Below, piece by piece: positions 46,412-47,829 of a stretch of 64,000 nucleotides of DNA. The stretch is taken from contig NZ_CP024845.1 in NCBI RefSeq assembly GCF_002788215.1, forward strand, positions 2,914,001 to 2,978,000, written 5' to 3'. The stretch is from Halohasta litchfieldiae (GTDB lineage Archaea > Halobacteriota > Halobacteria > Halobacteriales > Haloferacaceae). A program made the translations under genes and the position numbers. The notes under the pieces were generated by a model. The model was given only the letters and a program-made list of their open reading frames with translations. It was not told the origin of the DNA and did not search any database. Numbering within the stretch: position 1 is the stretch's first letter; each line of letters opens with the position of its first letter.

Positions 46412-46903
46412 TTAGGTTGGTCCACCGGCGTTCTCACGGGCACGATTGATGATACTGGATACCGGTTCCGTGTACTCATAGCCGGGGATAATCCCCTGAA
46501 CGAAGGTCCCCTCGACGTAGTCGATGACTGCTCCAGCGTCGTCGACGCCACGACGCTCGTTGATATCCTCGAAACTGGCCTCGACGGTGATCGTCTCGCC
46601 GTCTCGTGTGACCGATGGTTCGAGATCACGCTCGGTACGGAACACGCCGCCGATATCACCCACGCGCAGTTCGAACGTCTCGTACCATCCGTCTTCGACG
46701 ACTTCTGCGACCTCGTCTTCGGTCACGGCGTTTAGTAGGGGGACCCTAATTTCGACCGCGAACCGGATGTGGCCGTCGACGTGGTCGGCTTCGACGATTC
46801 CATCGAACGTGGTCGTGGTCGACTCGAAGCTCGCGTCGTCGACCTGTTCGAACGACGTGTGGTCGGCAAACGCACGATGAACCCGTCCGGGTAGCTCACT
46901 CAT
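46412..46903 (-). CDS. DUF5813-like haloarchaeal protein
   Basis: A 163-residue soluble protein, MSELPGRVHRAFADHTSFEQVDDASFESTTTTFDGIVEADHVDGHIRFAVEIRVPLLNAVT and so on. The beta-rich pattern with VEDGWYETFELRVGD and EDINERRGVDDAGAVIDYVEGTFVQGIIPGYEYTEPV resembles the haloarchaeal DUF5813 family from memory. Function is unknown. It is convergent with the second RAM gene, 8 bases apart. Confidence 0.68.
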   Translation of the reverse strand: MSELPGRVHRAFADHTSFEQVDDASFESTTTTFDGIVEADHVDGHIRFAVEIRVPLLNAVTEDEVAEVVEDGWYETFELRVGDIGGVFRTERDLEPSVTRDGETITVEASFEDINERRGVDDAGAVIDYVEGTFVQGIIPGYEYTEPVSSIINRARENAGGPT

Positions 46904-47063
46904 AGCTACTTACAGGGCGTCGACTCGGAAAAACACCGCTCTTTGCGTCGTTCTGATTGTGCTAACAGCTAGCTTGGGATGTCATTGGTTGTGATACTAG
47001 TTATCTTACAGCAACATCCACCGCACCCGGTATTGTTAAGTTAATCCGACCGATTTATTCAGG

Positions 47064-47094
47064 TGACGCTTCGCTTTGGAGGGCCGAAGCGTCA
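47064..47094. promoter_or_regulatory. perfect 10-bp inverted repeat
   Basis: TGACGCTTCG at 47064-47073 and CGAAGCGTCA at 47085-47094 are exact complements around 11 bases. It may be an RNA stem, the end of a mobile element, or a protein-binding site. Confidence 0.5.
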
Positions 47095-47114
47095 GCGGGG
47101 ACCAATCAAGGCAA

Positions 47115-47135
47115 CTCGCCTACGCGAGACTTTTT
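47115..47135 (+). terminator. hairpin followed by T run
   Basis: CTCGC (47115-47119) pairs with GCGAG (47124-47128) around CTAC, followed by AC and TTTTT (47131-47135). This looks like a transcription stop for a plus-strand RNA arising from the hairpin region just upstream. Confidence 0.4.
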
Positions 47136-47251
47136 CCTTTCGTGTGGGCGAGTAAGCCTGTTTCTACGAGATCTCTTCGGTGAGCGACAGCTGTCTGCGA
47201 GTGTGGCTGGTCGACAAGACGTTGTTGGAACATAGTAATAATAGCATACTT

Positions 47252-47271
47252 CGAGGGCTGGGATTCGAACC
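47252..47271 (-). repeat. partial duplicate of the tRNA-Leu 3' end (attachment-site-like)
   Basis: Bases 47252-47271 are identical to 47361-47380, which are the 3' acceptor strand and T arm of tRNA-Leu. The two copies are direct repeats 109 bases apart. Between them lie a GATTCGAATC palindrome and short hairpins. Tyrosine integrases commonly use the tRNA 3' end as attachment site and leave such a copy at the far end of the inserted element. Confidence 0.7.
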
Positions 47272-47358
47272 ACGGTCGTAGCGAAGCTACTCCCTGATTC
47301 GAATCCAGTCAGAACGATTCGGATGGTGCTCGCGTTCGCTCGCACCACACCACACTCA

Positions 47359-47443
47359 TGCGAGGGCTGGGATTCGAACCCAGGGATCCCTTCGGAAGCG
47401 GGTCTTAAGCCCGCCGCTTTTGGCCTGGCTCAGCCACCCTCGC
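47359..47443 (-). tRNA. trnL: tRNA-Leu (anticodon UAA)
   Basis: An 85-base tRNA without intron. The acceptor stem pairs GCGAGGG with CCCTCGC, with discriminator A. The anticodon stem GCGGG/CCCGC holds loop CTTAAGA, so the anticodon is UAA (decodes UUA, and perhaps UUG). The T arm contains GGGTTCGAATCCC. The long variable arm expected of tRNA-Leu is present (TTCCGAAGGGATCC region). CCA is not encoded. Confidence 0.95.
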
Positions 47444-47490
47444 CCAATCGTACTTTGCTTATCCAACAAAAGTGGGTTTCGATGTCGACG

Positions 47491-47829
47491 CTACCAGTCG
47501 ACACTCAGCGAGCCATCGCCATGCGGATCGGGCGCGAGTTCGATATCCTTCCGGCGGTCGATGATATGAATGATGCCGTCGCCCTTTTTTGCGGGACACA
47601 GCTCGGCGGCTTTGATGTTCTCGTCGAGTTCCGACTCGTCGAGAAAGTACGCCCGTGGGTTGGCAACGCCGGTATCGAGGTCGAGTTCCCAGTTCTTCGA
47701 GGCCTCAGCACACCGACCCGCGCCGAAGCATTTGTTCGCCTCGAAGATGATCTTGTACGGTTTCTCGTCGACCGATGGGGCGTCGTCGTTCGTGCCGAAC
47801 TCGCTGGGTTTCGGCCGCTCGTCGCTCAT
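47491..47829 (-). CDS. ferredoxin-like protein
   Basis: A 112-residue acidic protein beginning MSDERPKPSEFGTNDDAPSV. The core PYKIIFEANKCFGAGRCAEASKNWELD has cysteines about residues 34 and 40, and AAELCPAKKGDGIIHIID a third near 77. This C-x5-C plus CP pattern is that of single-cluster ferredoxins (3Fe-4S or 4Fe-4S) of the kind that serve one enzyme. It lies 49 bases downstream of nothing but the tRNA and just after the siroheme decarboxylase on the same strand, so a role in haem synthesis is possible but unproved. Confidence 0.82.
   Translation of the reverse strand: MSDERPKPSEFGTNDDAPSVDEKPYKIIFEANKCFGAGRCAEASKNWELDLDTGVANPRAYFLDESELDENIKAAELCPAKKGDGIIHIIDRRKDIELAPDPHGDGSLSVDW

Follow-up and report, generated by a model that had tools for sequence, protein, structure and literature searches.

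Hairpin units that repeat the tRNA 3' end behind haloarchaeal tRNA genes: possible miniature mobile cassettes

Introduction

Why would a tRNA gene be followed, within about a hundred bases, by a second copy of its own 3' end? Direct repeats at tRNA genes are usually read as provirus scars, and the first-pass annotation of the DNA studied here, a 64-kb stretch of the Halohasta litchfieldiae chromosome (the window; C1:2914001-2978000 of the 3.33-Mb single-contig genome G000), read a 20-bp repeat behind tRNA-Leu(UAA) in this way, as the trace of an integrase-bearing element that had left or shrunk. Here we ask what lies between and around the two copies, how widely the arrangement occurs, and which account of its origin fits best.

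Results

The repeat behind tRNA-Leu(UAA) is part of a structured unit

The 20-bp copy of the tRNA-Leu(UAA) 3' end is real and exact: the 20-mer GGTTCGAATCCCAGCCCTCG lies at 47361-47380 inside the gene and again at 47252-47271, both on the minus strand, and no further copy is found elsewhere in the window with up to three mismatches allowed. A chance repeat is ruled out, as 100 shuffles gave 0 matches. The annotated distance of 109 holds from start to start, but the gap between the copies is 89 bases rather than 90, and the copy starts 87 nt past the tRNA 3' end. It stops two bases before the tRNA does, reading CCCTCG and then AA where the tRNA has CA. The repeat begins in the T-loop, and in this the duplication is attachment-like, as had been proposed.

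The annotation had also seen a palindrome and small hairpins between the copies. These are present, but they are parts of a structured unit of two hairpins, h1 and then h2 in the order of the tRNA strand (Table 1). The palindrome GATTCGAATC (47296-47305) is the left arm of h2 and the tRNA-end copy its right arm, within an inverted repeat (I2) that pairs 47261-47275 with 47292-47306; h1, read by eye, holds a tandem G.A step, GGTGCGAGC/GCGAGCACC. Folding of 47250-47358 gives -48.6 kcal/mol for the tRNA strand (z -4.2, with 0 of 200 shuffles equally good) and -40.6 kcal/mol for the opposite strand (z -3.2, 1 of 200). A search of 46800-47700 against Rfam (E up to 1) returned only the tRNA and a sub-threshold mascRNA match, and no family for the unit.

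Table 1. Features of the tRNA-Leu(UAA) locus, in window coordinates
Feature	Position	Strand	Basis
tRNA-Leu(UAA), host gene	47359..47443	minus	
Hairpin 1 (h1)	47320..47352	minus	fold; similar hairpins after tRNA in relatives
h2 left arm GGATTCGAAT, reverse complement of T-arm	47297..47306	minus	inverted repeat, fold, tRNA covariation
h2 core CAGGGAG-TAGCTTCGCTA-CGACCGTG	47271..47296	minus	tandem G.A pairs, bulged G; core pattern
h2 right arm, copy of tRNA 3' end from G53 (T-loop)	47252..47270	minus	
Match to covariance model R1	47251..47312 (G000:C1:2961251-2961312)	minus	69.9 bits, E 2.9e-14, not an independent score, the unit being one of the 45 sequences used to build R1

A second hairpin repeat, GACGCTTCG...CGAAGCGTCAGCGGGGACC, occupies 47064-47104. 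An identical 41-nt match lies at G000:C1:3018708, shorter matches of 92-93% lie at 1497262 and 1522724, and the repeat is also found close to tRNA-Leu(UAA) in several relatives.

Units stand behind many tRNA genes of one order

The arrangement is repeated within the genome. A 47-nt sequence of core and arms, GGATTCGAATCAGGGAGTAGCTTCGCTACGACCGTGGTTCGAATCCC, is found unchanged behind tRNA-Arg(CCT) (G000:C1:3194209) and 87% alike behind tRNA-Cys(GCA). We read the trailers of 46 tRNA matches in this genome, which gave 45 distinct tRNA-plus-trailer sequences, and scored an own-end copy wherever the last 20 nt of a tRNA recurred, ungapped, at 16 or more of 20 positions no more than 300 nt downstream. 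Such copies follow 17 of the 45 distinct tRNAs of H. litchfieldiae, where they end about 90-190 nt past the tRNA, and 19 of 41 in a halophile of another family (G179), against 0 of 33 in G103, a non-halophile of the same phylum outside the order (33 tRNAs in 30 loci, from a genome with 43 tRNA matches). This difference supports a family of cassettes, and own-end copies at so many tRNAs rule out a lone scar. Copies with one inserted base also follow tRNA-Trp and tRNA-Pro of G179, which are outside the 41.

In both halophile genomes, no downstream stretch held the tail of another, dissimilar tRNA at 16 of 20 or better; three did in G103, and these we assumed to be neighbouring tRNA genes. The upstream control is sound for G179 alone, where the maximum score was 12 among 31 tRNAs with long upstream DNA; only two tRNAs of H. 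litchfieldiae had such DNA, and the score of 19 that one of them reached was taken to be a tandem tRNA-Asp neighbour.

The core has a sharp taxonomic limit. The pattern CAGGGAG-N5-35-GACCGTGGTTC is present in 35 of the order's 53 genomes and in none of 241 genomes from the rest of the phylum, with at least 119 stretches in named genomes, and the reversed control pattern gave none among the matches listed. Of the haloarchaeal matches listed, 82 of 91 lie at most 350 nt downstream of a same-strand tRNA, and 41 of these 82 carry all 20 letters of the adjoining tRNA's end; none of the 32 other, non-haloarchaeal matches listed is near a tRNA. Among the nine without such a tRNA, four are at a sequence edge (L214, L231, L255, L309); the rest comprise L262, where an insert intervenes, L206, with two matches at a protein-gene end, the ambiguous L304, and L315, in which a tRNA-end fragment precedes the unit and no whole tRNA was called. 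The covariance model R1, built from 45 units, found 12 matches in H. litchfieldiae, all 31-123 nt behind a same-strand tRNA, none in G103, and at least one in 31 of 40 relatives (H. litchfieldiae included). Of 30 R1 loci examined, 29 have a same-strand tRNA upstream; L515 is an orphan match without one. In some copies, belonging to several different tRNAs, the T-loop has one extra base, mostly a pyrimidine (L500, L520, and 16 units of a 190-unit set whose loci were partly picked for carrying units and which gives no frequency). Apart from the units, tRNA-Gly(CCC) in G179 (L323) is followed immediately by a repeat, 20 nt in period, of its last nucleotides together with TTCTGCTT; h2 is absent there.

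The units thus form a large, apparently undescribed family of short hairpins in Halobacteria with a core restricted to one order. No earlier description was recognisable from titles or the starts of abstracts, in a search that covered mainly papers outside subscription.

The reading as a scar of an excised or shrunken integrase-bearing element has in its favour the direct repeat of the tRNA end itself and one relative, L262 (Haloterrigena salina), in which a larger insert separates a tRNA from its copies. It is largely refuted by the unit family and its conserved fold, and we consider it very improbable. The 89 bp are no stump but a conserved unit, the same short structured sequence recurring at many different tRNAs across the order; the distance to the copy has a median of about 104 nt in the 190-unit set, for which loci had partly been chosen because they have units; no integrase gene or remnant lies in the 89 bp between the tRNA-Leu(UAA) copies; and in the flanks examined a same-strand copy lies more than 400 nt downstream in only 2 of 167 tRNAs. 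Nor do all relatives share one short arrangement that never takes an insert: by eye, 22 of the 30 tRNA-Leu(UAA) loci listed (our own included) have the unit, seven lack it (the congener G002 among them) and one is ambiguous. The annotation's expectation of foreign DNA between copies is borne out in part by L262 (L262:1-3300), one of the 2 of 167, where about 3.1 kb lie between tRNA-Val(CAC) and its unit array. This insert encodes a P-loop ATPase of the Sll1717 family (E 1e-55); of the expected integrase there are only weak scraps (phrog_1, E 0.073; XerC, E 0.12), with no Pfam match at E up to 0.1.

The left arm tracks the tRNA, and the sense strand probably folds

In the stem of 45 units from different tRNAs, 94.4% of cells pair, and 39 cells have changed on both sides against 14.3 in shuffled data (0 of 500 shuffles), and the left arms covary with each unit's own tRNA. 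The bulged G and the tandem G.A step are present in 45 of 45 cores, a constancy partly fixed by how units were selected. A left arm is clear in 165 of 187 units, and in these, the other 22 being omitted, the h2 arms hold 185 G.T against 73 A.C mismatches (110 against 73 with the first position excluded); A.G and C.T mismatches in the outer arms are equal, at 49 each. The excess of G.T over A.C suggests that it is the tRNA sense strand that folds, with the caveat that the units are related by descent.

These observations bring in the main rival to a mobile element, a cis-acting host RNA in the tRNA trailer, to which we give a substantial probability, well below even. On this account the primary transcript would span h1 and h2, the hairpin is predicted to mask the copy of the tRNA 3' end, and the structure, acting in pre-tRNA 3' processing, termination or protection, would be maintained by selection on the RNA. 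Both the sense-strand mismatch excess and the covariation of the stem speak for it, as does the position of every R1 match of H. litchfieldiae in a same-strand trailer. So does conservation in place. At tRNA-Leu(CAA), 19 sequences of one genus (apparently Halorubrum) differ in the spacer and the outer left arm but hardly at all in core and copy, which suggests a function in place; a purely selfish element would have no need of one. Pairing in these 19 is barely above that of shuffles (95.3% against 95.0%, 6 of 500), and just two pairs, both in h1, have changed on both sides, so the evidence at this locus is of conservation and not of covariation. Sense-strand folding and the constancy of core and copy are the best support for a trailer RNA. 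Several intergenic sRNAs in a table for Haloferax mediterranei adjoin tRNA genes (PMC5852579), which may also point this way. The same account has to accommodate that the unit is missing at tRNA-Leu(CAA) from about half the species of one genus, that more than half of the tRNAs in both halophile genomes have no copy at the cut-off used, and that units also occur at the end of a protein gene. A mobile cassette and a trailer RNA are compatible, and both may be true.

Filled and empty sites

The idea that tRNA-end sites are dynamic in relatives has been upheld at tRNA-Leu(CAA) of the same genus, where filled sites (tRNA, h1, h2, copy, flank) and empty ones (tRNA, flank) share their flank, which begins with clean ends either after the copy or directly after the tRNA; at tRNA-Leu(UAA) the relatives without a unit show its absence only. 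Of 45 loci placed on an upstream-flank tree, 23 are filled and 22 empty; five of the 50 loci are off the tree (L447 and L474 for odd arrays, L475 for a short upstream, L486 for a contig edge and L487 for a run of N). On this tree, which has long branches and rests partly on non-homologous upstream DNA, unit presence changes about 14 times, with at least seven changes forced by well-supported branches, and changes are no rarer than when the labels are shuffled (mean 15.4, with 152 of 500 shuffles as low). The hairpin that comes next, after the last copy or, at empty sites, after the tRNA itself, is of one of three kinds: X, Y and Z account for 20, 2 and 1 filled rows and for 13, 6 and 3 empty rows. 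Filled sites have Y as their h1 too, so empty sites of type Y may have arisen by a deletion that left h1 in place. More generally, empty sites could be simple deletions between direct repeats, and changes of state need not be insertions.

A further complication is a partial second tRNA-Leu, found near nine of the 45 rows (in one of them as a single distant motif match); the rows without it divide into 18 filled and 18 empty. In L443, L447, L451, L452, L460, L464, L472 and L474 it follows tRNA-Leu(CAA), or the copy, at a distance of about 250 nt. It is not called by ARAGORN, its variable arm contains about 85 nt of hairpin DNA, and it possesses a trailer of its own, which may or may not include a unit; two loci, L452 and L460, have the unit behind the partial gene and none behind the intact tRNA that comes first. 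Such a gene could exchange with the first tRNA-Leu, and its presence makes a mobile cassette slightly less, and a trailer RNA slightly more, favoured.

Partial tRNA-Leu copies with their own trailers also suit a neutral origin, in which slippage copies the tRNA end and trailer, template switching creates the mirrored arm and homology then homogenises the copies. Tandem arrays exist, the tRNA-Gly end in G179 is repeated in 20-nt steps, and comparable repeats occur at E. coli tyrV. We nonetheless think neutral tandem duplication improbable in view of a core common to many tRNAs and many genera, the covariation of the arms, and the confinement of the core pattern to one order.

Identical cores occur in 10 of 152 same-genome pairs (one of them a tandem pair in G310) against 36 of 3943 between-genome pairs, a share as high in only 1 of 2000 shuffles. 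Together with filled and empty sites and target-matched arms, this favours mobility of the cassette, although movement between sites is inferred here from comparisons of sequences.

A protein-gene target, and the search in viruses and plasmids

Units are not confined to tRNA genes. Natronorubrum texcoconense has three units in tandem, each about 103 bp long, at the end of a protein gene that matches an OB fold below the Pfam cut-off (E 0.00025); its last codons, GGTTCGAACCGG, are T-loop-like, and both unit arms match them. Tandem units whose arms match are found at this gene end, GGTTCGARCCGG, in two genera (2 of 30 loci read), the second with a matching variant, GGTTCGAGCCGG, and three G.T wobbles by eye, while a third locus of the OB-fold-like gene (L411) has an h1-like hairpin only. 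What the units target therefore seems to be a palindrome resembling a T-arm, and not tRNA function; a non-tRNA target with matching arms supports a mobile cassette.

A 55-nt unit was not found in the plasmids or phages searched, which counts against a mobile cassette. A viral attachment site is ruled out by this absence and by 19 viral pattern matches that look like chance; one of them, L403, about 213 nt behind a same-strand tRNA-Ser, reads as part of another tRNA gene. Among the matches listed in another viral scan, one contig (L038) has a unit, beside tRNA-Glu near the contig end.

Discussion

What, then, are these units? Our preferred reading, held tentatively and at somewhat less than even probability, is that they are miniature mobile hairpin cassettes that target T-arms and are read out in tRNA trailers. 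A cassette consists of h1, the left arm, the core and the right arm; it follows a tRNA gene directly at its 3' end, and about 20 nt of the tRNA end, from G53 in the T-loop, are thereby present twice. The cassette would move as a small attachment-site module in the form of a folded single strand, with the T-loop as the crossover, the T-stem as one half-site and the CAGGG/CCGTG stem as the other. The T-arms of tRNAs are frequent targets of tyrosine recombinases, and we infer that such an enzyme, supplied in trans, might recombine the folded strand. The cassette would be lost when the 20-bp direct repeats recombine with each other, and it would be transcribed within the pre-tRNA trailer. On the other side, no recombinase is encoded in the unit, and insertion at a new tRNA alone would not yield a matching left arm. 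The pR1SE, HSTV2 and SNJ2 integrase families are reported to be confined to Halobacteria and their elements (PMC8371274), and for haloarchaea insertions that carry an integrase are described at tRNA-His and tRNA-Glu (PMC3119063).

A bolder form of the cassette reading, which we regard as unlikely, is an archaeal counterpart of integron cassettes, in which folded hairpins dock at T-arms and cassettes of about 100 bp are moved by a host or viral tyrosine recombinase. Integron attC sites are imperfect palindromes that fold on one strand, with a bulged base and a variable terminal loop; they have a G|TT-like junction and occur in arrays. The haloarchaeal unit appears alike in all of these features, and differs in that its arms follow each tRNA rather than a fixed consensus and that no gene cassettes were seen between units in the flanks examined, where the distant copies noted above are so few. 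The likeness to attC is a resemblance only. If the counterpart were real, many tRNA trailers of Halobacteria would be a dynamic cassette platform.

Among the closest known systems are the rttR/tyrT repeats of Escherichia coli, in which a tRNA 3' end is likewise repeated downstream. At tyrV the last 22 nt of the tRNA are matched at 19 of 22 positions in three downstream places about 178 nt apart, and tyrT has one such match. That system is a single bacterial locus with 178-nt units, and its copies start later and include CCA, whereas the haloarchaeal units belong to many tRNAs, share a core and mirror the T-arm (the mirror was assessed in the haloarchaeal units only). Integrative elements and proviruses that enter tRNA genes by tyrosine integrases also target the T-arm, duplicate the 3' end and leave the tRNA intact; an example is a 52-kb island at tRNA-His that ends in a 43-nt repeat of the tRNA 3' end (PMC3119063). 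The unit differs from these in its length of about 90 bp, the absence of an integrase, hairpin arms matched to the target, and its presence at more than a third of tRNAs in two genomes. The PATEs, MITEs and small mobile repeats of Haloquadratum are likewise short, non-coding mobile elements of haloarchaea, some with palindromes near their ends; the accessible part of that account mentions no tie to tRNA genes and no copy of a tRNA end (PMC3119063). Given the Rfam result and the likeness to rttR, we place the units among tRNA-end repeats as a distinct variant, outside any described family.

In each of two halophile genomes, more than a third of the tRNA genes are followed by a structured trailer that repeats the gene's own end. 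Whether the units prove to be miniature mobile elements of a new class or a new RNA of the tRNA trailer, either outcome would change how direct repeats at tRNA genes are to be read, and the units offer a ready test bed in genetically tractable archaea.
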